Positions 6,397 to 30,865 of a DNA stretch of 36,970 bases are shown one piece after another; position 1 is the first letter of the stretch, and each line of letters opens with the position of its first letter. The notes under the pieces are model-generated. The model made no database searches. It was not told where the DNA came from and saw only the letters and a program-made list of their open reading frames with translations. The stretch comes from Deltaproteobacteria bacterium (GTDB lineage Bacteria > Desulfobacterota > Desulfobulbia > Desulfobulbales > Desulfocapsaceae), in contig PDQP01000016.1 in the NCBI GenBank assembly GCA_002747805.1, forward strand, positions 1 through 36,970, read 5' to 3'. Position numbers and translations under genes: made by a program.

Positions 6397-7722
6397 TTAC
6401 CGCTCGGTCAGGGCGTTTTGCCTGGCCTTCAACAGCGGTTTCAGAATATAGGAAAGGATAGTTTTTTTGCCGGTGATAATATCCACCGAAACGGTCATGC
6501 CGGGAATAATCTTTAACGGCTTGTCCTTGGTGCCTAGGTCGGTTCTGGGAGTTACAATTTCCACCAGAAAATAGGTCTGGTTTCTTTCATCCTTTAAGGT
6601 ATCGGCACTGATTCGTTCCACCCGCCCGGCCAGGCCGCCGTAAATAGAAAAATCATAGGCCGTTACCTTGACGGTCGCCTTTTGTCCGGGATGAAGAAAG
6701 GCAATATCAGACGGCCTGATTCTTGCTTCAATCAGCAGGTTATCCTTGAGAGGTACAATCTCCACCAGATCCATCCCCGGCTTGACCACCTGCCCCAGGG
6801 TATTGACATGAATCTGTTTAACAATACCAGCAGACGGGGCTCTGACCAGGGTGCGGCTGACCTGATCCTTGAAGGTGGCCTGTTTTTCAGCAAGCGAATC
6901 CCTTTTTCTAAGCGCCTCGCCCAGTTCCTTCTGCACTCTGGCCTTAAAGGTAATGGTCAGCTCTTCCTTTTTCTTCTCCATCTCGCTTTTCTGGCTTTCG
7001 AGATCGGGAATGGACGACACCGCCATATCTTTTTGCTCAAGAATATCCGCCTGCTTCCGCCGCAATTCCAGAAAATCGCTCTGGGATTCAATCTTTTGTT
7101 CAACCAGCGGCCTGGTAATATCGATCTGCTGCTTAAGCAAACCGGCCTTTTTATTAAGATGTTTGACCTTCAAACGAATTTTATCAATTTGCGCCTGTTT
7201 TTGCTTGATTTTTTCCTCGATGATATGCCGCTGACTATCCAGAAAACGCATATTGGAGCTATAAAGTTCCGCCTGAACACGGGCGATTTCAGGATGCTTT
7301 TTCTGCAGCTCCGGCTCAAGATGCAAGGCAGTTTCATTAAGTTCTGCCTTAAGTCTTGAAATCTCAAGCGACAGGCTGTCCAGGGTGGTCTTTGACTCAT
7401 TAAAAACGCTCTCAAAACCCTGATTTTTGATCTTGAGCAATACCTGCCCGGCCGCCACCTGATCGCCGTCTCTGACCAAAAGCTCTTCGATGATTCCGCC
7501 TTCCAGATTCTGCACGGTCTGAATCTTGCCCGAAGGAACCACCACCCCCATTCCCCTAGTTACTTCATCTATGGCGGCAAACCTTGCCCAGACAATCAGC
7601 ATCACCATAATCAGCACCAGGCTGACCACAATAACTCTGGAGCGGGCATAATGCTGCTCATAGACCGCCCTTTCATAGATGGAAATATAATCAAGCTGTT
7701 CCTTAGGAATTTTATCTTTCAA
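6397..7722 (-). CDS. Type I secretion membrane-fusion protein, HlyD family (LapC-like)
   Basis: Single N-terminal helix, VVPSGKIQTVQNLEGGIIEELLVRDGDQVAAGQVLLKI lipoyl-like hairpin, coiled coil, RAPSAGIVKQI and IIPGMTVSVDIITGKKTILSYILKPLLKARQNALTER C-terminus. Confidence 0.93.
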   Translation of the reverse strand: MKDKIPKEQLDYISIYERAVYEQHYARSRVIVVSLVLIMVMLIVWARFAAIDEVTRGMGVVVPSGKIQTVQNLEGGIIEELLVRDGDQVAAGQVLLKIKNQGFESVFNESKTTLDSLSLEISRLKAELNETALHLEPELQKKHPEIARVQAELYSSNMRFLDSQRHIIEEKIKQKQAQIDKIRLKVKHLNKKAGLLKQQIDITRPLVEQKIESQSDFLELRRKQADILEQKDMAVSSIPDLESQKSEMEKKKEELTITFKARVQKELGEALRKRDSLAEKQATFKDQVSRTLVRAPSAGIVKQIHVNTLGQVVKPGMDLVEIVPLKDNLLIEARIRPSDIAFLHPGQKATVKVTAYDFSIYGGLAGRVERISADTLKDERNQTYFLVEIVTPRTDLGTKDKPLKIIPGMTVSVDIITGKKTILSYILKPLLKARQNALTER

Positions 7723-9836
7723 GAGTCTTGCCCTATTGTCTTTTTCCCTGCCGAGCCGTAAAACTTCTGGATGAAAACTTCCTTGCCGTCATCAAAGATA
7801 ACCTGGCCCTTATCCATGACAATTACCCGATCCACCAGAGCCAGCAGGGCATTTTTATGGCTGGAGATAATAAGGGTTATATCTTCTACCATCGGCCTGA
7901 TTTTTGCCACAAAACCCTGTTCGCTCCGGCCGTCCATAAAGTTGGTCGGTTCATCCAGAAGAGCAATTGACGGTTTACCAATAAAGGCTCTGGCGATGGC
8001 AACCGCCTGTCTCTGACCGCCTGAAAGATTGGCTCCGCCCTCGCTAATCGGCATGGCAATTCCTTGGGGACAGCCCTGAATCAGCTCTTCAAGTCCGGCA
8101 AGACGAATGGCCGCCAGCAGCTCGTCATCGGCAATATGCACATTTTTCAGGGTGAGATTGTCCCGCAAAGTGCCGGCAAACAAAAGCACATCCTGCGGCA
8201 CACAGGCAATCTGCTGACGCAAAAATATCGGCGAAATTGCACTCATATCCAGCCCATCCACCAGAATACTGCCCTGCTGGGGCCGATAAAAGCCCACCAT
8301 AAGCTGGTGCAGGGTGGTCTTGCCCGAACCGTTGGCCCCCAAAAGAGCCACCTTTTCCCCCGGCTTGATACGGAAAGAAATATTTTTTACGCTGGGCTGT
8401 TCCATATTGGGGTAGGCAAAGGAGACATCCTTAAACTCAATGCCGCCGTCCAGACTTTTCGGGCAAAGAAAATTATGCCCCCCTTCCAGCTCGGCCGGCA
8501 TTTCCATAATATTTTTCAGGGAAGAATAGGCCACCTTGGTCTGGTCATAGGAAGAAAGCAGCCCGGCCACCTGCCCCACCGGAGAAATGGCCCTGGAAGA
8601 AAGAATCATCACCGCAATCAATCCGCCCATGGTCAGCTTACCGCTATTGATCAGGTAAACCCCGTAAATAACAATAAAAACGCTGTCAAGCTGAATCAGC
8701 ATTCCCATCACCGTGTTGATGGAGCTTGATAAAAAGCGGCTCTTGATGCCCTGCCCGGCCAGCGTGCTGACCAAATGTTCCCATCTGGCCCGAAACCGGC
8801 CGGCAGCATTAAAAATCTTGATATTTTTAAGACCGGCAATGCTTTCAATCAGCAGGGCATTTTTCTGTACGCCCCCTTCAAAGGAAGCAGCAATACTGGC
8901 AAAAAGCGGTTTTCTGATTACCAGCACATAGGCCAGCAACAGCAGCATACAAATTATGGGAATCACAACCAGACTGCCGCCCACATAAAAGATGGCGGCC
9001 AGAAAGACCAGGGCAAAAGGCAGGTCGATGACAAAGAGGATCACCGAGGAACTCATAAAGTTCTTGATGGCATCAAACTCCTTGATATTAGAGGCAAAGC
9101 CGCCCACATTGGTCGGCCCGGCCTCCATCCGCAGATCCATCACCTTTTCAAAAAGCAGGGAAGATATTAAAATATCGCTTTTTTTGGTGGCAAGTTCAAT
9201 GAAATTGACCCGCAGAAATTTCAGCAGGGCATCGCAAATAATAATGATAATAACCGCACTGGCCAGCACCCATAAGGTTTCAACGGCAAAATTGGGTACC
9301 ACCCGGTCATAGACATTCATGGAAAACATCGGTACCGCCAGCACAAAGAGATTGACGGCCAGAGATGCCAGCAGAATATCGCGGTAAATGGGCAGCGAGA
9401 CCTTGACCGCCCGCAGCAGCCAGCCCTGCTTGCTCCGCACCTCTTCATGCTCAAGGCCGGATTTACCGGATAACTTGCCCAGGAAAAAACAATAGCCTGA
9501 ATAATTATCAGTTAGTTCCTGCAGGGGGATACTGCGGGTAATTCCGCCCGTGAGCAGGCATTTTGCCCGGGTATTGCCAACCTTCATACATAAACAGCCG
9601 CTGCCGTCCTTAAGAACAAGCATAACCGGCAGGGTCAGCGGATGGATCCGGTGAATATCCTCCTTGGTGAATTTTGCTAAAATCCCCGATTTTTGGGCAA
9701 AATCCACCACCAGCTCAGGAGTAACGCTTTCGGCATCGGCAGCAATGCCGAGACGGTGGCAAATGGTCTCGGTATGAACCTCCATGCCCTGCCGGGTCAA
9801 ATGCTCCGCCAACAGCTTGATAACACTAAGCTTCAT
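7719..9836 (-). CDS. Type I secretion ABC transporter/permease with N-terminal C39-like domain (LapB-like)
   Basis: ATPase motifs ALLGANGSGKTT (Walker A), LSGGQRQAVAIARA (signature), IALLDEPTNFMD (Walker B); six-TM domain; N-terminal C39-like domain without the catalytic Cys motif. ATGA overlap with the HlyD gene. Confidence 0.94.
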   Translation of the reverse strand: MKLSVIKLLAEHLTRQGMEVHTETICHRLGIAADAESVTPELVVDFAQKSGILAKFTKEDIHRIHPLTLPVMLVLKDGSGCLCMKVGNTRAKCLLTGGITRSIPLQELTDNYSGYCFFLGKLSGKSGLEHEEVRSKQGWLLRAVKVSLPIYRDILLASLAVNLFVLAVPMFSMNVYDRVVPNFAVETLWVLASAVIIIIICDALLKFLRVNFIELATKKSDILISSLLFEKVMDLRMEAGPTNVGGFASNIKEFDAIKNFMSSSVILFVIDLPFALVFLAAIFYVGGSLVVIPIICMLLLLAYVLVIRKPLFASIAASFEGGVQKNALLIESIAGLKNIKIFNAAGRFRARWEHLVSTLAGQGIKSRFLSSSINTVMGMLIQLDSVFIVIYGVYLINSGKLTMGGLIAVMILSSRAISPVGQVAGLLSSYDQTKVAYSSLKNIMEMPAELEGGHNFLCPKSLDGGIEFKDVSFAYPNMEQPSVKNISFRIKPGEKVALLGANGSGKTTLHQLMVGFYRPQQGSILVDGLDMSAISPIFLRQQIACVPQDVLLFAGTLRDNLTLKNVHIADDELLAAIRLAGLEELIQGCPQGIAMPISEGGANLSGGQRQAVAIARAFIGKPSIALLDEPTNFMDGRSEQGFVAKIRPMVEDITLIISSHKNALLALVDRVIVMDKGQVIFDDGKEVFIQKFYGSAGKKTIGQDS

Positions 9837-9847
9837 CTCCTAGGTAA

Positions 9848-12118
9848 CTATAGTCCCTCGCCTCTCAGCACATATTGCATAAACTGGTTTACCCGCTTTG
9901 ATTCCGGCAGAACCGGGTCTTCTTCAAAACTTCCCCAGTAAAAAACGCTTACCTTATCCGGCCCAAGACCTTTTTCGCTCAGATAATCAGTCATTAAAGC
10001 CGCCCGCTCAAGACCAAGCTGCTGATTTTTATCCGGCAGCTCATTGGAATAAAGGATGATTTCCGCCCTTCCCTGATGCTGCCGGATGGCGGTGATCACT
10101 CCGGCAAGTTTTTTGCTGTCCTTAATCCTGGCCTTGCCGTGAGCAAAGACCTTGCCCGCCACCGCATGGCTTAGATATTGAGACTTATAATCAGAGGTTT
10201 TATCGGTGAATTTCAGCCGCAGGACATTGTGGCCGCGGGCGGCATTAGTATCGGCAAAAACGAATATCCCATTGCCGATTCTATTTTGCTGCAGAATCCG
10301 TTTTAAGGTATATGCCCGCTTAATGGCTAAGGCATAATTATCATCTTCTTTATCATATTCATTAGTACTTACCGTAAGATAAAGAGGGAACTCGGTGCTG
10401 TAATCTCTGGCCTGATGCACAAGCTCCTTCATAAACCGGCTGGTCATATCGCTTGAAAGCCCGGCGCTTTTCGGTAAAAACACATCAAAATCAAAGCGGG
10501 TGTCAACATTTACCTGTAAAGGCTTTTTCTTCAGCGAATCACCAGCACTAATTACAACCTCGCTGGCACCGCTTTCCGGCCCTGCCTGCCTATAGATATA
10601 GCTGCTGTCATATTTGCTGCTAATCCCAAGTTCATTCACCTGTTCCCCGGCCAGACTGTTCATGCTGACATCAATATCATCCATAACCTGATCTTGATCA
10701 AAATCAGGTTCAAGCGGCAGTTCATCATTGCTAAACGGCACATAACCGCTATCCTTTTCAATCATGGTCTGGGCCAGCGGATTAAGCAGCCCCAGTTCCG
10801 AGAGCAAAATTCCTTCGGAGAGCAAGATCCGGTATTTTTCTATTTCCCTGGAATAAACGGTATCAATAAGCTGTTCGCTAATATGGCGGTACTCATTTTG
10901 AATATCAAGAATGTTGATCAGACTCCGCCGTCCCAAAACAAATTCCTTTTTGTAGGATTCAAGCGATTTACCGGTAAAATAAAGATTTTTCTTGAGTATG
11001 CCGATCTGGTCGGCCAAAATCTTGTGGGCAGACCAGGAAAGCTGAATATCCCTGAGCAGGGTTCTGCGGATTTGATAACTTTTTTGCTGCTCTCTGTGAA
11101 CCTGGCTGACCGCAGCCTGAACCCGGTGCGGCCTGCCCGCATCAAACAGGGTATGCTGATAATGCACGCTGACGCTCGCATCTGCCCGGTAATCATCCTC
11201 GGAATCAAACTCGTTTTCCACTCCGGCAGAGCCTTCCAGGGATAAACGGCCCCAAATGTCCGCCCTTTTATTACGGTGTTCCGACCTTTTTTGAGCGGTA
11301 TTATAGTAGGCTTCACGCAGCAGCGGATTAAACTTAACCTGCAGATCAAGGGCCTCTTTCAGCGATTGCGGCAGCCCGTCGGTTCCCATTTCCGGCATGG
11401 TCATATCATCAGCCACAACAAAGCGGCCCAGCATTTTATGCAGGGTGTAAACCGCCTTTTTATAATCGTTACGCCTAAGCAGCAATCTTGACCTGGCTGA
11501 AGCCAGACGGCCATTAACCCGTTCAAGATCAGAGCGTCCCTTTCTGCCCCTTTCCACCTGCAACTTCACGCTTTCAAGCAAATTTTCATGGGTCAGCACA
11601 TTTTCCATGGCCAGTTCCCGCAATTCATTATACTTGAGGACATGCAAATAGGCGGCAATGGTCTCATAAGCCACCTGATTTGCCTCTCCCAGATAAGAAT
11701 AAAGAGCGGCAAGCATATAGTTTTTTCTGGCTGATTTCAGGGAAGAAGTCCTGCCCCAATCGTAGAGCAACTGGCTGATGGTCAGCCTTGCATCATAGAA
11801 GCCGTCATCGGTTTCATTATCATAGTCGATTTCTTCCAGATGCTCTTTTTCTTCTTCGTCCCAGTCCTTATCCTCCCGATGATATTTATAACCGACATCA
11901 CCAGAAAAAATAACCTTGGGAAAATAAAGACTTCGGGCATCTTTTTGCTCCGCAAGAGCTGCATTATAGGCCTTTTGTTTCTCCAGAATGCGGGGATTGG
12001 TGGCAACCACATCCTGCAAGACCTCATCCAGGCTAACGGCCTGCAGCCCGGCAGGTGCAGACAGAATCAGGCATACCGCACCTTTTTGACATAGACTGAT
12101 AAAACTCTTCCGGTTCAT
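9848..12118 (-). CDS. TolC-family outer-membrane channel with C-terminal OmpA-like extension (LapE-like)
   Basis: ATG at 12118 after ggagga RBS, signal peptide MNRKSFISLCQKGAVCLILSAPAGLQAVS; TolC repeat motifs (RLTISQLLYDWGRTSSLKSARKNY, VHYQHTLFDAGRPHRVQAAVSQV); C-terminal about 230 aa resembles OmpA-type modules (LERAALMTDYLSEKGLGPDKVSVFYWGS). The ORF track's start at 12199 is too long. Confidence 0.88.
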   Translation of the reverse strand: MNRKSFISLCQKGAVCLILSAPAGLQAVSLDEVLQDVVATNPRILEKQKAYNAALAEQKDARSLYFPKVIFSGDVGYKYHREDKDWDEEEKEHLEEIDYDNETDDGFYDARLTISQLLYDWGRTSSLKSARKNYMLAALYSYLGEANQVAYETIAAYLHVLKYNELRELAMENVLTHENLLESVKLQVERGRKGRSDLERVNGRLASARSRLLLRRNDYKKAVYTLHKMLGRFVVADDMTMPEMGTDGLPQSLKEALDLQVKFNPLLREAYYNTAQKRSEHRNKRADIWGRLSLEGSAGVENEFDSEDDYRADASVSVHYQHTLFDAGRPHRVQAAVSQVHREQQKSYQIRRTLLRDIQLSWSAHKILADQIGILKKNLYFTGKSLESYKKEFVLGRRSLINILDIQNEYRHISEQLIDTVYSREIEKYRILLSEGILLSELGLLNPLAQTMIEKDSGYVPFSNDELPLEPDFDQDQVMDDIDVSMNSLAGEQVNELGISSKYDSSYIYRQAGPESGASEVVISAGDSLKKKPLQVNVDTRFDFDVFLPKSAGLSSDMTSRFMKELVHQARDYSTEFPLYLTVSTNEYDKEDDNYALAIKRAYTLKRILQQNRIGNGIFVFADTNAARGHNVLRLKFTDKTSDYKSQYLSHAVAGKVFAHGKARIKDSKKLAGVITAIRQHQGRAEIILYSNELPDKNQQLGLERAALMTDYLSEKGLGPDKVSVFYWGSFEEDPVLPESKRVNQFMQYVLRGEGL

Positions 12119-12146
12119 TTTCTCCTCCAGTTTTTCTGTGAGATAT

Positions 12147-12432
12147 GGGGCAAAGTGCCTTGAGTTCGTCGATGTTTTCATCAACAAAATCCCAAACAAT
12201 ATCTATTTTTACTCCAAAATAATTATGAATCAACTTGTCTCTCATCCCTGCAACACCATTCCACGGAATTCCGACATGTAATCCTTTGAACTCTTTTGAA
12301 ATATTTTTTGCTGCTTCTCCAATAATTTCAAGGTTTCTGACTACTGCATCTTGTATTCGCTTTGATGCTTCAAGATAACATTGGATAATTTTCACGTAAT
12401 TTAGCTAAAATGATATTTTTTGAGAGTTTCAT
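12147..12432 (-). pseudogene. Remnant of a MntA/HepT-type toxin-antitoxin module (deletion fusion)
   Basis: From ATG at 12432: MKLSKNIILAKLRENYPMLS* (MntA/nucleotidyltransferase-like start), then in another frame ASKRIQDAVVRNLEIIGEAAKNISKEF...IPWNGVAGMRDKLIHNYFGVKIDIVWDFVDENIDELKALCP (HepT/DUF86-like C-terminal part with Rx4HxY). Confidence 0.75.
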
Positions 12433-22013: not shown

Positions 22014-23558
22014 ATGAATGTCAGATGGACGCCACTAGATATTATTGATTTTGAATACCTGCTTGCCCTTGACAGCAAGCAGTATCAAGAGGCCCGGCAG
22101 CACCGTCAGGCCGACCGGGATTTTTTCACGGGCCGCCTGAAGCCGTTGCTGAAAGGTGATACGGATGACCAGGCCGTGCTTGCTGCCTGGCTGCTCGAAA
22201 AACGAAAGTTATCCCAAGGGCCGCTGCCCGGCAGTATATTTAATAATTTTCAAACCCTTACCAAGGCAGTTACCATTATTACTGCCCTGCTTGCCGGGGC
22301 CGGTATAACTTCCCTGCTCCTTCGCTATGACGGCACCAGTCCGGTTAATATCTTTGGTTTTTTCTGGGTGCTGCTTATCCCCCAAATCTTGCTGCTGGCT
22401 CTTATGCCGCTGTTCTTTATTTTTAGAAAAAGAGCTGGTTATACCGCCGGTTTATACCGCCTTTTTTCAGGCTTACTGGTAAGGGGATTTACCTTTTTTG
22501 CCAGAAAATCCGGCTTGATACCGAAAGGAATGAAGCGGCTGGCCGTTGAAGGGGCGGCCGGTAAATCAAGGGTCCTGCTGAAAAGATATAATAAACTGAT
22601 TTTCTGGCAAATTTTCACCCTGTTTCAACTTTTTGGAGCAGGGTTTAATCTGGCCGCCGCCCTTACCTTGCTGCTCCGGGTGCTTGGTACTGACATGGCC
22701 TTTGGCTGGCAGTCAACCATCCAGTGGGGGGAAGAGCTTATTTTCAAGGTATGTTCAGTTATTTCAATGCCATGGAGCTGGTTTATGACCAATGCCCATC
22801 CCGGCCATGAGGCAATTGCCGGCAGCCGCATTATTCTGAAAGATGGACTTTACGGCCTGACCACGCCGGATCTTGCTTCTTGGTGGCCTTTTTTGCTGAT
22901 GAGCCTGCTGGTTTACGGCCTGCTGCCGCGTCTTATTCTTTTATTTATCGCTGCGGCCGGGCAAAAAAAGATGCTGGCCAAAATGACACTTGACCAGCCT
23001 CGGCATCTGGAACTGATTTACCGGCTTACCACGCCCATCGTCTCGACCCGGGCAAGGCAACCGGCTGCCAGCAGGAACAGCCTGCCGCCCAGGATGGAAA
23101 AGCCGATTGATACCGATGGTTTCCTTACCGCCACCGCCTTTATCCCGGATGAAATAATGCCGGACTGCAGGCAGGAAAAACTTGCCGCCTGCCTTGGCCA
23201 AATCCGGCTGAGACTGCTGGAAATGGTGCCGATACAGATGGATTTTGAGCATGACTGGCCATTATTTATGAATCATCTTGGCGACCATGAAAAAATCTGT
23301 TTTATTCTGCTGGAAGGCTGGATGCCGCCGATAAACGACACCTTAAGCTATCTGAGAAAATTTGCACAAACCATGCCCGAAAACAAAATCTATATAGGGC
23401 TGATTGGCAAGCCTGAAAAGGATAATATTTTCACCTCCCCCACCAGCGTGGAGCTATCAATATGGCAGACCAAAACCGGCATGCTGGATAAAGCTGCGGT
23501 GATACCGTTAATAGATGCAAATGTGTTCAATGAAAAAGAAATAAAGGAAAATAAATGA
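22014..23558 (+). CDS. DUF2868 family membrane protein
   Basis: Multi-helix membrane protein matching DUF2868 layout; located upstream of a DUF3482 GTPase, its usual partner, although here separated from it by an R-M pair. Confidence 0.75.
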   Translation: MNVRWTPLDIIDFEYLLALDSKQYQEARQHRQADRDFFTGRLKPLLKGDTDDQAVLAAWLLEKRKLSQGPLPGSIFNNFQTLTKAVTIITALLAGAGITSLLLRYDGTSPVNIFGFFWVLLIPQILLLALMPLFFIFRKRAGYTAGLYRLFSGLLVRGFTFFARKSGLIPKGMKRLAVEGAAGKSRVLLKRYNKLIFWQIFTLFQLFGAGFNLAAALTLLLRVLGTDMAFGWQSTIQWGEELIFKVCSVISMPWSWFMTNAHPGHEAIAGSRIILKDGLYGLTTPDLASWWPFLLMSLLVYGLLPRLILLFIAAAGQKKMLAKMTLDQPRHLELIYRLTTPIVSTRARQPAASRNSLPPRMEKPIDTDGFLTATAFIPDEIMPDCRQEKLAACLGQIRLRLLEMVPIQMDFEHDWPLFMNHLGDHEKICFILLEGWMPPINDTLSYLRKFAQTMPENKIYIGLIGKPEKDNIFTSPTSVELSIWQTKTGMLDKAAVIPLIDANVFNEKEIKENK

Positions 23559-24565
23559 ATAAGATAAGGGCACCAAGAAACCGAACCACTATTTTGACAG
23601 AAAATGATCGAGACTATTATTCAAAATTTCTGCTCACACTTGAAAGAAAAGTAACCCTGAATGAAATAATTGATAAAACCATAAATCAGGACATATATGA
23701 TATAGCCGATTTTTTGCCGGATAAAAGCGTTGACTTACTGATAGCCGACCCCCCATACAATATAAACAAGAAATTTAATGGCCGTCAATTTACAAAAAAA
23801 ACTTTGGATGAATACGAAGAATGGCTGGATAATTGGGTCAAGGGAATTTTGCATATATTAAAAAAAACTGCATCCATATATATATGCGGTGATTGGCAAT
23901 CATCTACAGCCATACACAGGGTAATGCAAAATTATTTCAAGGTAAGAAATAGAATTACATGGGAAAGAGAAAAAGGCCGTGGAGCAAAAACAAACTGGAA
24001 AAACTGTTCTGAAGACATCTGGTTTTGTACAATGTCAGATGAATATACCTTTAATGTAGATTCTATAAAGATGAAAAGAAAGGTAATTGCACCATACAGG
24101 GATAGTAAGGGACAGCCAAAGGATTGGGCTAATACCGATACTGGAAAATTCAGAATCACCCATCCTTCTAATTTATGGACAGATATATCCATTCCTTTCT
24201 GGTCAATGCCGGAAAATACTGATCATCCGACCCAGAAACCTGAAAAACTAATCGCAAAACTTATCCTTGCTTCATCTAATGAGGGAGATGTTGTTTTTGA
24301 TCCTTTTCTTGGCAGCGGGACGACTTCTGTGGCGGCAAAAAAATTAAACAGACTTTACTCTGGAGTAGAAATTGATAAGGATTATTGTTGCCTGGCAGAA
24401 AAGCGTTTATCAATGGCTGACAATGAAAAAAATATTCAGGGTTATTCAGGCGGTTATTTTTGGGAACGCAACACTCTGGCTGAACAAATAAAATCAAAAG
24501 ATAACAAACCTAAAAAACAAACAAAATCATATCAAAAAACACTTTTTGATGAGGCTGCACAATGA
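23555..24565 (+). CDS. Site-specific DNA methyltransferase, beta-class amino-MTase
   Basis: Motif IV DPPYN precedes motif I DPFLGSGTTSVAAKKLNRLYSGVEID; HPTQKPEKL. Confidence 0.92.
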   Translation: MNKIRAPRNRTTILTENDRDYYSKFLLTLERKVTLNEIIDKTINQDIYDIADFLPDKSVDLLIADPPYNINKKFNGRQFTKKTLDEYEEWLDNWVKGILHILKKTASIYICGDWQSSTAIHRVMQNYFKVRNRITWEREKGRGAKTNWKNCSEDIWFCTMSDEYTFNVDSIKMKRKVIAPYRDSKGQPKDWANTDTGKFRITHPSNLWTDISIPFWSMPENTDHPTQKPEKLIAKLILASSNEGDVVFDPFLGSGTTSVAAKKLNRLYSGVEIDKDYCCLAEKRLSMADNEKNIQGYSGGYFWERNTLAEQIKSKDNKPKKQTKSYQKTLFDEAAQ

Positions 24566-25224
24566 AAAGTAGTATATTTTATTCTGAACATCATAAAATT
24601 ATTGAAAATAAAGTGAAAGACCTTTTAAATAACCATGATGATTTTCTTTCACCGCAAACGGTGCAAAGTCCCAGGGCTGCAGGTGATGCCATTGAGGAAA
24701 TAATCGCTGATAGTTTTGACACTATACTTAATGAAAAGTGTGCGGATTATCAAGCAGATTTTGCTCGCAGAGCTATGGCGGATCTGGCTTTTAAGGATTA
24801 TGATGACTTTTATTATGTGGTTGATGTTAAAACTCATAGATTAGAAACCAAGTTTAATATGCCAAATTTAACATCTGTACAACGTTTGGCAAGATTATAT
24901 GAAGATGATAGAAACTATTTTTCCCTGCTGATAATCAAATATTCCTTACAGAAAACATCTGTAAAAATATCAAGAGTTCATTTTGTTCCCATAGAATTTA
25001 TTGGGTGGGATTGTTTAACCGTTGGTGCTTTGGGGTGGGGACAAATACAAATATCAAACTCAAACAACATTACCATTAACGATGGCTATTCAAGAAAAAA
25101 GTGGATGCTTGAGTTGTGTGATGTTTTGGCAGAATTTTATCCAAAAGAAATATCAAAAATATCTGAACGGGTTGATTATTTTGAGAAGGTCAGACAATTT
25201 TGGCAAAAAAAGGAGGAGAACTGA
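24562..25224 (+). CDS. Predicted type II restriction endonuclease (PD-(D/E)xK type)
   Basis: ATGA overlap with the MTase gene; MADLAFKDYDDFYYVVDVKTH fits a PD-D/ExK core; low GC like the MTase. Confidence 0.75.
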   Translation: MKSSIFYSEHHKIIENKVKDLLNNHDDFLSPQTVQSPRAAGDAIEEIIADSFDTILNEKCADYQADFARRAMADLAFKDYDDFYYVVDVKTHRLETKFNMPNLTSVQRLARLYEDDRNYFSLLIIKYSLQKTSVKISRVHFVPIEFIGWDCLTVGALGWGQIQISNSNNITINDGYSRKKWMLELCDVLAEFYPKEISKISERVDYFEKVRQFWQKKEEN

Positions 25225-25368
25225 AAATTGACGGATATATAACATTTTTTTTGTTCATCTATTGCAAAATAGCAATAATTATCAAATTCACTGTTTATTT
25301 ATGAAATCCAAAACAATTTATTACGGGTTTATTTTATTTGTCAGAGGATTTTGTCTTAAAGGAAAAGT

Positions 25369-26769
25369 ATGATCCCGCAATTTGCCATAATCGGCCACCC
25401 AAATGAAGGAAAATCATCGGTATTATCAACCCTTGCCGAAGATGATTCGGTGGTTATCAGCCCCATCCCTGGTGAGACCAGGGTCTGTCGAACCTTTCCG
25501 GTGGTTATTGACGGCGAGGAAATGCTTGAATTTATTGATACTCCCGGCTTTCAAAACCCGCGTCGGCTCTTTGCCGGTCTGCGTAAAATAAAGGCATCCG
25601 GCCTTGAGGCAATCCGTCAGCTCAGGCAAGATGAAAAAGACAATCCAGAGCTTGCCGATGATTGCGAGCTTTTAGGCCCGATTATAGACGGAGCCGCCAT
25701 CATCTATGTGGTTGACGGCTCCAGACCGCTAAGGCAGGTGGACAGGATAGAGATGGAGATTCTGCGGCTCTCCGGCCAACCCAGAATGGCCATCCTTAAC
25801 AACAAGGAAAAAGGGGCTGATTATATTGAAGAATGGAAGGAGGAATTTAGAAAAAATTTTAATGTTTTCAGGTTATTTAATGCTCATAAGGCAACCTGTG
25901 CCGAACGTATCTCCCTGCTCGAAGCCCTGAAAGCCATCAATCAGGATTTGGAATCGGTGCTAAACAAGGTGATTGATTCCTTCAAAACTGACTGGCAAAG
26001 GCGAAATCAGCAAAGCATGGAACTAATCTGTAAGCTGCTTCAACAATGTCTGCAGCACCAGGTTGAAATGCCGGTTTCGACCGCCCCTGACCGTAAACAG
26101 GTTGAGGAAAAGCTGCATATCCAATACTGCCGGGATATAAACCGTATGGAAAAGGAAATTCATCGAAAAATCAAGGCATTATTCAAACATAATATTTTTG
26201 ACTTTGAGTTTTCCAAAAACCGTATCCTGCATGAAGATCTGTTTAGCGAACAAACCTGGCAGCTTTTGGGACTGAACCGCAGCCAGATGATGGTTGTTGG
26301 CGGCATCAGCGGTGCAGGTCTTGGCGCCGCTGCCGATCTTATCGCCCACGGTGCATCCCTTGGCCTGTTTATGACGGTTGGCGGCGTGCTGGGTTCGGCC
26401 GGGGCCTTGTTTGGCGGCAAAAAAGTTTCAACCAGTGCCAAATTTATGGGCCTGCCGCTAGGCGGCAAAATCTACCGTATCGGTCCCAATAAAAATCATA
26501 ACTTCCCCTTTATCATCATGGATCGGGCCTTGTTATTTTATTCATACACCATCAACTGGGCACATGGTCGGCGTGATTATCAAAGACTGAAAGAAACCGG
26601 AAAAAACCGTCAAAAACAAGGAATAACTGCCGCCATGTCCAAAAAGGAATTAAAAATTTGCAATGATTTTTTTAAGGAATTAAGAAAAAACGGTGTGCCG
26701 CCATCCGGCAGGAAGGATGATTTCACCGCCCTGCTGGAAAAATATATGAGTAACACTTCAGATGATTGA
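25369..26769 (+). CDS. GTPase with DUF3482 domain
   Basis: FAIIGHPNEGKSSVLSTL (G1), FIDTPGFQNP (G3), ILNNKEKG (G4-like), glycine-rich C-terminal segment VGGISGAGLGAAADLIAHGASLGLFMTVGGVLGSAGALFGGKK. Confidence 0.87.
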   Translation: MIPQFAIIGHPNEGKSSVLSTLAEDDSVVISPIPGETRVCRTFPVVIDGEEMLEFIDTPGFQNPRRLFAGLRKIKASGLEAIRQLRQDEKDNPELADDCELLGPIIDGAAIIYVVDGSRPLRQVDRIEMEILRLSGQPRMAILNNKEKGADYIEEWKEEFRKNFNVFRLFNAHKATCAERISLLEALKAINQDLESVLNKVIDSFKTDWQRRNQQSMELICKLLQQCLQHQVEMPVSTAPDRKQVEEKLHIQYCRDINRMEKEIHRKIKALFKHNIFDFEFSKNRILHEDLFSEQTWQLLGLNRSQMMVVGGISGAGLGAAADLIAHGASLGLFMTVGGVLGSAGALFGGKKVSTSAKFMGLPLGGKIYRIGPNKNHNFPFIIMDRALLFYSYTINWAHGRRDYQRLKETGKNRQKQGITAAMSKKELKICNDFFKELRKNGVPPSGRKDDFTALLEKYMSNTSDD

Positions 26770-26894: not shown

Positions 26895-28892
26895 ATGACT
26901 AATAACATGAAAAAAAACACTGACTATTTCTATCCTTCCGAGGAGTTTAAGGCCCAGGCAAATCTTAACGACAGCACCATTTTTGAGCGTTTTACTCTCG
27001 ATAAATTTCCTGATTACTACGCCGAATTTGCCGAGCTTATCGAGTGGAAAAAGCCGTGGCAGCAGGTGTTTGATGCAGGCAATGCCCCCCACTGGCAATG
27101 GTATCTCGGCGGGACCTTAAATGCCAGCCATAACTGCATTGATCGGCATCTGCCGCATTTTGCCGACAAGACGGCGATCTCCTTTGTTCCTGAGCCGGAA
27201 TCAGAAGAGATGGTGCATCTTAGTTATGGAGAACTCCATGAAAAGGTTAATGCGGCCGCCGCCATGCTGCGGGAAAATGGCGGCATCAGGCGCGGCGATC
27301 GGGTAGCTATTCACCTGCCGATGTGTGCCGAACTTCCCATCACCATGCTGGCCTGTGCAAGGCTGGGGGCGGTTCATACCGTTATCTTTGGCGGATTTTC
27401 TGCCAGTGCCTGTGCCGACCGCATTATCAACTCCCAAGCGAAAATATTTATTACCATTGACGGCTACTATAGAAGCGGCCGATTTTTAGACCATAAAGCC
27501 GTTGGTGATGAAGCTTGCACCCTCGCCGGAGAGGCCGGTCATAAGGTAGAAAAGATCTTTTTCTGGCAGCGCTTTCCCGGCAAGACCGCAGAAAACGCCG
27601 CTGTTAACGCAGGCGATGTTATCATCAATGAAGAGCTGAAAAACTATATCGGCACCCTGGTTGAACCGGAAGAGATGGATGCCAATGATCCGCTTTTTCT
27701 GATGTACACCAGCGGCACCACCGGCAAACCCAAGGGGGCGCAGCACGGCACCGGAGGGTATCTTAGCTATGTTACCGCAATGTCAAAATATATTCTTGAT
27801 ATTCACCCCGAAGATGTCTATTGGTGCATGGCGGATATCGGCTGGATTACCGGACATTCCTTTATTGTCTATGGGCCGCTTTCCCTTGGTGCATCGGTGG
27901 TAATCTACGAGGGGGTTCCCACCTTTCCCGATGCCGGGCGTTCATGGCGGATTGCCGAGGAATTAAATATTACCATCTTTCATACTGCACCAACGGTGAT
28001 CAGGGTGCTGCGCAAACTTGGGCCGGAGGAGCCTGCGAGATATAATTTCAATTTCCGGCATATGACCACCGTTGGCGAGCCGATTGAGCCGGATGTCTGG
28101 CTTTGGTATAAGGAGGAAATCGGCAAGAACAAGGCGGTTGTCTGCGATACCTACTGGCAGACGGAAACCGGCGGGTTTCTCTGTGCAACCGTGCCGGCGT
28201 TGTTGCCGATGAAGCCGGGGAGTGCCGGCCCCGGCGTTCCCGGCATACATCCGGCCGTTATTGATGAAGAGGGGCAGATTATTTCCCCCGGCAGCGGGCA
28301 GCGGGGCAGCCTCTGTATCCGCAATCCATGGCCTGGCTGTATGCAGACCATTTGGGGCGATGATGAGCGTTTTGTCAAGGAATATTACGGCATGTATAGC
28401 GACACGGCCAGTAAAAACTGGCAGGACTGGCTCTATCTCACCGGTGATGCGGCGGTGATGGGCGAGGACGGCTATATACGGATTCTTGGCCGCATAGATG
28501 ATGTGATCAATGTCTCAGGCCATCGAATCGGCTCCAAAGAGATTGAATCGGCGGCAATGACGGTACCCGAGGTGGCCGAGGCGGCAGTTGTTTCGGTAAG
28601 CAACGAAATCAAGGGGGCGGAGCCGGAGATCTATATTTCTCTGCGTCCGGGCTGCGGCGGTGATGAAAATAAAGAGAAGATTGCGGGGGCGGTGGAACAG
28701 GCAATTATCCGCGATATTGGCAAGATTGCCAAATGCCGCCGGATCTGGGTTGTTGCCGATATGCCCAAGACCCGTTCCGGCAAGATTATGCGGCGGGTTC
28801 TGGCTTCCATTTCCAATGGGGATGAGGTGGGCAATGTGATGACCCTGGCAAATCCGGAAATTGTGGATGAAATCAAGAAAATAGTGCAGTAA
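26895..28892 (+). CDS. acsA: Acetate--CoA ligase (acetyl-CoA synthetase)
   Basis: WYLGGTLNASHNCIDRHL; LFLMYTSGTTGKPKGAQHGTGGYL; YWCMADIGWITGHSFIVYGPL; DTYWQTETGG; C-terminal PKTRSGKIMRR acetylation-type motif. Confidence 0.96.
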   Translation: MTNNMKKNTDYFYPSEEFKAQANLNDSTIFERFTLDKFPDYYAEFAELIEWKKPWQQVFDAGNAPHWQWYLGGTLNASHNCIDRHLPHFADKTAISFVPEPESEEMVHLSYGELHEKVNAAAAMLRENGGIRRGDRVAIHLPMCAELPITMLACARLGAVHTVIFGGFSASACADRIINSQAKIFITIDGYYRSGRFLDHKAVGDEACTLAGEAGHKVEKIFFWQRFPGKTAENAAVNAGDVIINEELKNYIGTLVEPEEMDANDPLFLMYTSGTTGKPKGAQHGTGGYLSYVTAMSKYILDIHPEDVYWCMADIGWITGHSFIVYGPLSLGASVVIYEGVPTFPDAGRSWRIAEELNITIFHTAPTVIRVLRKLGPEEPARYNFNFRHMTTVGEPIEPDVWLWYKEEIGKNKAVVCDTYWQTETGGFLCATVPALLPMKPGSAGPGVPGIHPAVIDEEGQIISPGSGQRGSLCIRNPWPGCMQTIWGDDERFVKEYYGMYSDTASKNWQDWLYLTGDAAVMGEDGYIRILGRIDDVINVSGHRIGSKEIESAAMTVPEVAEAAVVSVSNEIKGAEPEIYISLRPGCGGDENKEKIAGAVEQAIIRDIGKIAKCRRIWVVADMPKTRSGKIMRRVLASISNGDEVGNVMTLANPEIVDEIKKIVQ

Positions 28893-28945
28893 ACCAAGGG
28901 CGTCTTGGCGGGCTGCTAGTCCGTCCGGCACCTAAAGGAGAGGGT

Positions 28946-30865
28946 ATGCCATATTCAGCTACGGCCAAAACAACCCGCAAGGATATTTACTGGGCAGATG
29001 CCTACCTGAAAAAAAAGGTCAGGGCAAAAGAGGCTGTAGGCAAGATTCGCTCAGGTCAAAGGGTTTTTCTCGGCTCCGGCTGCGGTGAGCCTCAAAAACT
29101 TATCCAGACCCTGGTTGATGCGTCCGGCGGGTTCAGCGGCCTTGAGGTTGTCCGGCTTTTCGGGCGGGAAACCGCTTCGCTGACTGCGGTTGCCGACCGC
29201 ACTCACGATACCAGCCTTAATGTCCGCTCCATCTACCTTGGAGCTACCGCCGACAGCAATATCGCCCGCCAGAAACGCTTTATTACGCCGATGAATATGT
29301 CGGATATTCCGATGCTTTTTACCAGCCGCCGGATGCCGCTTGATGCGGCGGTTGTGCAGGTTTCTCCCCCCGATGATTTCGGCTGGATGAGCCTCGGCAT
29401 TGCCGTTGACGTAAGCATGGCGGCGGTGCGTTCGGCGGATATGGTGATTGTGCAGGTCAACAGCAGGATGCCGCGGATTATGGGGCAGAGTTTTATCCAT
29501 GTTAATGATGTGGACTGGATTGTTGAGTGTGATGAAGAGCTGATTACCGTAACTCCCCCCGCAAACCGCAGCAGGCAGGCGCAGCAGATGGGCAAACATG
29601 CCGTTGGTCTGATTGAAGACGGTGCAACCCTGCAGATTGGGCTGGCTGCCGTGTCCCAGGCGACCATGGAAGCCCTGTCCTGTAAAAATGATTTGGGCGT
29701 CCACTCCCAGTTTATGATTGATGATATTATGCACCTCTACTCCACGGGCAATATTACCAACAAGAAAAAGGGGTTAAATGAGGGCAAGATGGTTGCCTCG
29801 ATGGCAATTGGCTCCAGCAGCCTCTATGAATTTCTCCATGATAATCCGGCGGTTGATTTTCACCCCTCTGATTATGTCAACAATCCCTTTATTATTGCCC
29901 GGCATAACCGGATGGTCTCTATCAATATGGCACGGGCGATGGATATTACCGGCCAGGTATCTGCCGAGGCAACCGCTGCCACCCACTTTGGCGGGGTTTC
30001 CGGTATTCCTGATTTTGTGCGGGGGGCAAGGCAGTCGCCCGGGGGCAAATCCATCCTGCTGCTTTTTGCCGTCAATGAGACCGGGGCCGGGCTGACCAGC
30101 AATATCGTTGCCAAACTAGGCGAGCTGGAGACGGTGGTGCCGCGGGGCGATGTTCATTATGTGGTTACTGAATTCGGTGCGGTCAACCTCTTTGGTAAAT
30201 CAATTCAGGAGCGGGTGATTGCGATGATTTCCATTGCCCATCCCCAGTTCAGGGAAGAACTCTTTGCCCAGGCCAAGGAGCTTGGCTATATCGGCAGTGA
30301 ACGCAGCCTTGGCGAGGCGGCGCAGGCGGTCTATCCGGTTCAGCTCGAGGAGACCATCGAGCGGGACGGCGAGCAGATCCTGATCCGCCCGGCAAAGCCT
30401 GTCGATGACAGGCGTATTCAGGAGCATTATTATAACCTGCCGCAAAAGGATGTAGAATCCCGTTTTTTCTGCAAGAAAAAGATCTTTTCGCTGGATGAAA
30501 TCGAAAGCCACAGCTTTGTTGATTATGTTAATGACCTGACCCTGATTGCCGTAACCGGCGAGATGGGGTTTGGCCGGGTGGTTGGTGTGGCCGAGTGTAT
30601 GAAAATTGAGGCCCAGAATATGGCAGAGGTGGCCTTTTCGGTTACCGAGGAGTATCAGGGCAAGGGAATTGGGCGGTTTTTTATCCATAAACTTGCAGCC
30701 ATTGCCCGGGAAAACGGGATTGCCGGACTGGTTGCCGTAACTAATCCGGGCAACAAGGCGATGATTCATCTCTTTAAGAGCCTGCCCTACAGGGTGGAGA
30801 GCGTTATTGAAGACGGTGATATGGTGCTGACCTGCCGTTTTAGTGAAATGGTTGAGAAATTTTGA
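28946..30865 (+). CDS. Acetyl-CoA hydrolase/CoA-transferase family protein fused to C-terminal GNAT acetyltransferase domain
   Basis: N-terminal CoA-transferase pattern (GQRVFLGSGCGEPQKLI; DLGVHSQFMIDDIMHLYSTGNI; ITGQVSAEATAATHFGGVSGIPDFVRGARQSPGGKSI); C-terminal GNAT motif AFSVTEEYQGKGIGRFFIHKLAAIARENGI. Confidence 0.9.
   Translation: MPYSATAKTTRKDIYWADAYLKKKVRAKEAVGKIRSGQRVFLGSGCGEPQKLIQTLVDASGGFSGLEVVRLFGRETASLTAVADRTHDTSLNVRSIYLGATADSNIARQKRFITPMNMSDIPMLFTSRRMPLDAAVVQVSPPDDFGWMSLGIAVDVSMAAVRSADMVIVQVNSRMPRIMGQSFIHVNDVDWIVECDEELITVTPPANRSRQAQQMGKHAVGLIEDGATLQIGLAAVSQATMEALSCKNDLGVHSQFMIDDIMHLYSTGNITNKKKGLNEGKMVASMAIGSSSLYEFLHDNPAVDFHPSDYVNNPFIIARHNRMVSINMARAMDITGQVSAEATAATHFGGVSGIPDFVRGARQSPGGKSILLLFAVNETGAGLTSNIVAKLGELETVVPRGDVHYVVTEFGAVNLFGKSIQERVIAMISIAHPQFREELFAQAKELGYIGSERSLGEAAQAVYPVQLEETIERDGEQILIRPAKPVDDRRIQEHYYNLPQKDVESRFFCKKKIFSLDEIESHSFVDYVNDLTLIAVTGEMGFGRVVGVAECMKIEAQNMAEVAFSVTEEYQGKGIGRFFIHKLAAIARENGIAGLVAVTNPGNKAMIHLFKSLPYRVESVIEDGDMVLTCRFSEMVEKF

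Follow-up and report, generated by a model that had tools for sequence, protein, structure and literature searches.

A Pat-like GNAT acetyltransferase fused to a probably non-catalytic CoA-transferase domain, a candidate regulator of acyl-CoA synthetases in Desulfobacterota

INTRODUCTION

That bacteria switch acyl-CoA synthetases by reversible acetylation is textbook knowledge. The lysine of PKTRSGK-type motifs is the conserved regulatory acetylation site (PMC11532494, PMC11255334). Bacterial GNAT acetyltransferases are listed as types I to V, none of them a CoA-transferase type, and the regulatory domains described in reviews are acyl-CoA synthetase-like, cAMP-, NADP- or amino-acid-binding, or a tandem GNAT (PMC8556138, PMC6456759). 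In Bacillus, AcuA acetylates AcsA, AcuC deacetylates it, and AcuB inhibits AcuC in an AMP-dependent manner; the acuABC operon was described in Firmicutes (PMC13121692). Family I CoA-transferases normally move coenzyme A from one acid to another.

Here we describe a gene that joins a GNAT domain to a family I CoA-transferase domain and lies beside acs. It was found in a window of 36,970 nucleotides (the whole stretch of DNA that we analyzed) from a draft genome, 71% complete, of a member of the Desulfocapsaceae. We found no description of a CoA-transferase/GNAT fusion or of a pseudo-CoA-transferase in the open-access literature.

RESULTS

The fusion gene lies directly downstream of acs. The two genes are on the same strand with a gap of 53 bp, and AAGGAG at 28935 precedes the ATG of the fusion gene. 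The relevant features are as follows.

26895..28892, + strand: acs, AMP-forming acetate--CoA ligase, 665 aa (TIGR02188, 735 bits, above the cut-off of 725)
28782..28784, + strand: Acs Lys630 within PKTRSGK, a conserved type of regulatory acetylation site and a candidate acetylation target
28946..30865, + strand: CoA-transferase/GNAT fusion gene, open reading frame with ATG start, 639 aa (Pfam and PDB matches)

A preliminary description had noted a neighboring Acs with PKTRSGK, and this was borne out. On the 3' side, the fusion gene is followed by galT and then a galactokinase-like open reading frame. Elsewhere in the window, positions 6397-12199 (- strand) hold a type I secretion-like set made up of an HlyD-family protein, an outer membrane efflux protein whose C terminus weakly matches OmpA, and an ABC transporter with a long N-terminal part. 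Positions 22014-26769 (+ strand) hold genes for a DUF2868 protein and a GTPase/DUF3482 protein; between these two lie an N6/N4 DNA methyltransferase gene and an unassigned open reading frame.

Pfam matches to the fusion protein were AcetylCoA_hydro (residues 28-203), AcetylCoA_hyd_C (289-443), and GNAT (528-611), and its AlphaFold2 model had a mean pLDDT of 87.8 and a pTM of 0.84. The N-terminal part is predicted to have the overall family I CoA-transferase fold: Foldseek aligned the model to 3eh7 with a target-normalized TM of 0.92. The closest solved relatives of this part are the 4-hydroxybutyrate CoA-transferases 9vag (E = 5e-97), 3eh7, 3d3u, 3gk7, and 2oas. The score against TIGR03948 (butyryl-CoA:acetate CoA-transferase) was 238.6 bits, below the NCBIfam cut-off of 674.8. 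The domain and its active-site positions are as follows.

28985..30289, + strand: family I CoA-transferase domain of the 4-hydroxybutyrate/butyryl-CoA:acetate type, residues about 14-448 (Pfam, TIGR03948, phmmer against PDB, AlphaFold2 model)
29639..29662, + strand: GLAAVSQA (residues 232-239), an altered counterpart of the mobile 270s loop, which reads GxGAIPDA in active relatives
29708..29710, + strand: Gln255 (CAG) at the position of the thioester-forming Glu (AarC E294, 3GK7 E238; alignments)
29879..29881, + strand: Asn312, equivalent to AarC N347 of the internal oxyanion hole, kept
29993..30004, + strand: GVSG (residues 350-353) in place of the GxGG oxyanion loop; S352 corresponds to AarC G387, and G353, the oxyanion-hole G388, is kept

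The preliminary description had proposed that Gln replaces the thioester-forming Glu, and alignment to AarC and to the 4-hydroxybutyrate CoA-transferases confirmed the Glu column at Gln255. The fusion protein reads H253-S-Q255-F without the expected Glu of H(S/T)E; in each of the five PDB sequences aligned (9vag, 3eh7, 3d3u, 3gk7, and 2oas), Gln255 pairs with the Glu of H(T/S)E(M/L). AarC numbering was transferred through a relative's AarC-like protein aligned to AarC, followed by motif matching to the family alignment; the AarC landmarks were E294 within YSEV, N347 within VSNSP, and G387-G388 within NGIGG. The resulting equivalences (Q255 = E294, N312 = N347, S352 = G387, and G353 = G388) are alignment-based, at ~17% identity, and are backed by common E, N, and GxGG..DF patterns.

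We surveyed about 219 nonredundant homologues from fetched Desulfobacterota loci. A homologue at E <= 1e-60 was present in 49 of 58 genomes of relatives, mostly as a full-length fusion, and a Glu-type fusion was matched at 1e-100 in 135 of 297 Desulfobacterota genomes. Outside the Desulfobacterota we made one contig scan, in which the best 80 matches were apparently all Desulfobacterota, several of them named only Deltaproteobacteria or Proteobacteria. We grouped the full-length proteins by the residue at position 255 together with loop 350-353. In clade A/B, to which the window protein belongs, residue 255 was Gln in 96 of 98 proteins, Leu in one, and Arg in one, and the loop was GxSG or GxTG. 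The Leu and Arg members indicate that an acid was not restored in this clade. Since Gln occurs in so many full-length proteins from many species, we rejected chance, sequencing error, or assembly error as its source. Clade D had Gln in 14/14, with a GxGD loop in which Asp is the counterpart of G388. A Glu group (n = 93) had the GxGG loop, except for two proteins with GIDG, and an Asp group (n = 9) had Asp at the thioester Glu position and an intact GxGG. Thus, the loop was altered in every Gln protein and was intact in the Glu and Asp homologues apart from those two. Glu and Gln paralogues co-occur within single genomes.

Several members stand apart from this main pattern. The clade D proteins are L059, L063, L064, L066, L247, L248, L251-L254, L257, and L265-L267, and the Asp-type fusions are L217, L224, L229, L232, L233, L246, L249, L261, and L268. 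A Glu-to-Asp change turns glutaconate CoA-transferase into a hydrolase; by analogy, the Asp-type fusions may be acyl-CoA hydrolases. A tandem gene pair (L068:5995-8697) begins with a divergent fusion in which HSPI puts Pro where the Glu would be and an insertion lies close to the GxGG loop, and its second gene is a fragment with HTQ at the contig end. Stand-alone homologues on unrelated plasmids had Glu and an intact GxGG in six of seven cases and Gly in the seventh. This last one (L282, Rhodococcus ruber plasmid NZ_CP145320.1), a match (H1) considered as a possible fusion, proved to be a stand-alone CoA-transferase with HSGM at the Glu position, next to thiolase and HMG-CoA lyase genes.

From 53 representatives, we built a tree that excluded the active-site columns. 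Gln clades A/B and D were recovered separately, with support of 100/100 and 99/93, respectively, and an AU test against one Gln clade rejected a single origin of Gln (p = 0.007). Therefore, the Glu was lost at least twice, and the GxGG loop changed differently each time. Glu-type proteins show 95% or higher conservation at 79 CoA-transferase positions, of which 62 have the same majority residue in clade A/B and 73 in clade D. The switched positions in A/B include 234 and 237 in the 270s loop, 255, and 349 and 352 in the GxGG loop; those elsewhere include 65, 82, 91, 94, 97, 287, 342, and 427. In sequence terms, this pattern is that of a domain re-used without catalysis and not of decay.

Fixed Gln, its two or more origins, and the linked GxGG change argue for a non-catalytic domain, as the preliminary description had supposed in calling the CoA-transferase fold dead. 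We conclude that the CoA-transferase domain of the fusion is very probably non-catalytic. It could instead still be an enzyme, either because cellular deamidation converts Gln to Glu or as a slow, non-covalent acyl-CoA hydrolase, with the GNAT as a separate activity. In glutaconate CoA-transferase, Gln variants can regain activity through deamidation, and clade A/B retains the fold and the majority of conserved positions, among them the counterparts of G388 and N347, whose retention counts against loss of function. However, Leu and Arg occur naturally at residue 255 in this clade, the GxGG loop was altered along with the Glu in two separate lineages, and those family members that need an acid retain Glu or Asp. 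We consider a remaining enzymatic role quite improbable.

The changed catalytic loops would also fit an N-terminal domain that does not bind acyl-CoA and serves solely as a scaffold for structure or oligomerization. Such a role gives no reason for Gln to have stayed fixed at the nucleophile position for so long, and H253, Q230, N312, D356, F357, and E409 are nearly invariant in this domain. We regard a scaffold as improbable.

Many Desulfobacterota fusions keep the Glu, so a dead domain is no precondition for the fusion architecture. In these Glu-type fusions, the GNAT is coupled to an apparently active CoA-transferase domain.

The C-terminal part of the protein had been described as a GNAT domain with YQGKGIG, which agrees with the Pfam match and with Pat-type structural matches. 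Its best PDB matches were 9it0/9isq (Escherichia coli PatZ) and 4nxy/4u5y (the GNAT of Streptomyces lividans Pat). Its features are as follows.

30368..30853, + strand: GNAT domain of the Pat type, residues about 475-636 (Pfam, PDB matches; target-normalized TM of 0.90 between the AlphaFold2 model and 4u5y, which was solved with the C-terminal domain of acetyl-CoA synthetase)
30626..30628, + strand: Glu561, the counterpart of E. coli PatZ E809 in the alignment; all 98 clade A/B proteins have Glu here
30656..30673, + strand: QGKGIG, the acetyl-CoA pyrophosphate loop (R/Q-x-x-G-x-G/A; alignment)

The pyrophosphate loop is mostly intact across clade A/B. Mutation of PatZ E809 lowers activity without abolishing it, and the role of this residue is disputed in Salmonella Pat (PMC8556138); the conservation of E561 is therefore supportive and is not proof. 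Together, these features suggest that the GNAT domain is likely a protein lysine acetyltransferase. We found no candidate for a canonical Pat in the source genome, at its 71% completeness, or in its nearest relative (G011), where the sole match to PF13607 was a succinyl-CoA ligase-like protein.

The preliminary description had further taken the fusion for an independent analogue of Pat. The sensor domain is indeed unrelated to that of Pat. The GNAT is homologous to those of PatZ and S. lividans PatA, so the fusion is better described as a Pat with a swapped sensor domain than as a fully independent analogue.

We read gene neighborhoods to about 6 kb at most and counted neighbors within 4.5 kb. 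We found acs or prpE at 18 of 84 clade A/B loci versus 3 of 80 other loci; these and the following counts are phylogenetically non-independent, and Fisher tests on them ignore relatedness and are indicative only. An ADP-forming acyl-CoA synthetase gene lay beside 13/84 clade A/B loci, and genes for a CBS protein (AcuB-like) and a deacetylase of the histone-deacetylase family (AcuC-like) lay beside 3/84, all in clade B. Altogether, 31 of the 84 loci had a synthetase, 35 had a synthetase or an Acu gene, and 49 had neither. Among the Glu-type fusions, 33 of 58 had a synthetase and 34 had a synthetase or an Acu gene; an ADP-forming synthetase adjoined 31/58, and AcuB-like and AcuC-like genes occurred together at 11/58. 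Such neighbors occurred at 0 of the 21 loci of the Asp group and clade D in the stretches read. Proximity to acs was thus rejected as a family-wide rule, since it is absent at most clade A/B loci.

Where synthetase genes are present, their arrangement varies. In related Desulfocapsaceae, the fusion gene often lies between a prpE-like gene (divergent, upstream) and acs (convergent, downstream), and among the genomes read, the codirectional order of acs followed by the fusion gene occurred only in the source genome. The best match of the prpE-like gene was NF007815, with a score under its cut-off. PKTRSGK was present in every flanking prpE-like or acs copy read to its end. In relatives from Desulfosarcina and Desulfatitalea, an ADP-forming acyl-CoA synthetase gene lies 5' of the fusion gene on the same strand. 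Near a Glu-type fusion, the copy of the ADP-forming synthetase that was read has the catalytic His motif SHTG. Two further arrangements are recorded here. Glu-type fusions L042, L046, L048, L049, L097, and others lie within acu-like loci (AcuB-like, AcuC-like, and ADP-forming synthetase) outside the Firmicutes, and a 219-aa protein that matches no Pfam or NCBIfam model (L072:5268-5927) recurs between the fusion gene and acs in Desulfocapsaceae, at 10 clade A/B loci.

Overall, the neighboring genes suggest a role in controlling acyl-CoA synthetases, and we think it fairly likely that these enzymes are among the GNAT targets. The targets could also lie elsewhere (beta-oxidation enzymes, other proteins, or a small molecule), with the proximity to acs reflecting only a common acetate/propionate metabolism. 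Many clade A/B loci, in Desulfofustis and its kin, adjoin genes for thiolase, 3-hydroxyacyl-CoA dehydrogenase, enoyl-CoA hydratase, and acyl-CoA dehydrogenase, and clade D lacks synthetase neighbors. Set against this are the closeness of the GNAT to Pat-type protein acetyltransferases and its recurrent association with two unrelated families of acetyl-CoA-forming enzymes and with AcuB/AcuC-like genes. We judge targets lying elsewhere altogether to be unlikely. The beta-oxidation neighbors and the 49 loci with neither synthetase nor Acu gene do suggest that Acs may be neither the sole nor the main target.

DISCUSSION

We propose, as the reading that we moderately favor, that the fusion acts as a Pat-like lysine acetyltransferase: its regulatory domain, a former CoA-transferase, would have ceased to catalyze and would instead sense acyl-CoA, and its GNAT would shut off synthetases. 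The inactive AarC-E294A variant takes up CoA and dethiaacetyl-CoA and adopts the closed state, and the 270s loop of AarC is mobile (Murphy et al., PMC4876117). The AarC-E294A structures therefore suggest that a domain without the Glu would be able to bind acyl-CoA without turnover. With Gln replacing Glu and with changes in both the GxGG and the 270s loops, glutamyl-anhydride and glutamyl-CoA intermediates would not form. According to this model, the N-terminal domain would bind acetyl-CoA or a short-chain acyl-CoA (e.g., butyryl- or propionyl-CoA) without turning it over and would close, and closure would change the activity or oligomeric state of the GNAT. The GNAT would then acetylate the regulatory lysine of neighboring AMP-forming synthetases, putatively Lys630 of Acs and, in relatives, that of PrpE, switching them off once acyl-CoA is abundant. 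That the dead domain senses acyl-CoA is somewhat more probable than not, judging from its fold and from the analogy with AarC.

A broader proposal is more tentative and falls a little short of an even chance: that a CoA-transferase became a non-catalytic sensor at least twice and forms a sixth lysine acetyltransferase architecture, which replaces Pat or AcuA in sulfate-reducing and related Desulfobacterota and governs AMP-forming, and perhaps ADP-forming, synthetases. If true, nature would have turned an enzyme into a sensor in a clean-cut way, with the same Glu-to-Gln replacement giving rise to a CoA-transferase-derived regulator on two or more occasions. The presence of Glu and Gln paralogues in the same genomes makes this step directly testable. 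It would also provide a handle on the control of carbon activation in acetate- and propionate-oxidizing sulfate reducers.

The putative metabolic switch that sulfate-reducing bacteria would have in a dead CoA-transferase joined to a GNAT seems to be of a kind not described before. The NCBI pipeline uses a name that combines acetyl-CoA hydrolase/transferase and GNAT; existing annotation may therefore already show the architecture itself. The fusion falls outside GNAT types I and II because the defining acyl-CoA synthetase-like domain is absent.

Among known systems, the fusion resembles E. coli PatZ, Salmonella enterica Pat, and S. lividans PatA in having a homologous GNAT with the same Glu (E561 = PatZ E809), joined to a large domain that derives from an acyl-CoA-handling enzyme and lacks the catalytic residue, with acyl-CoA synthetase genes nearby. 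Unlike in the Pat enzymes, the regulatory domain is a family I CoA-transferase and not an NDP-forming acyl-CoA synthetase, and the protein is about 640 rather than about 880 aa long. It shares its predicted fold with AarC and the 4-hydroxybutyrate/butyryl-CoA:acetate CoA-transferases (3GK7, 3EH7, 9VAG; TIGR03948), and is 32-37% identical to the closer of these across about 430 residues. It differs from family I CoA-transferases in having Gln for the thioester Glu, GVSG for GxGG, a changed 270s loop, and a C-terminal GNAT. The Glu-type fusions and three clade B loci recall Bacillus AcuA/AcuB/AcuC in that genes for a GNAT, a CBS protein, and a deacetylase adjoin one another close to an acetyl-CoA synthetase gene; in contrast to AcuA, which is a single GNAT domain, the GNAT here comes joined to a CoA-transferase domain, and no acuB or acuC lies beside the window gene. 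Finally, the window protein and the Glu-type Desulfobacterota fusions have the two-domain architecture in common, at 33-40% identity, whereas the latter retain the Glu and GxGG, and hence probably have active CoA-transferase domains.
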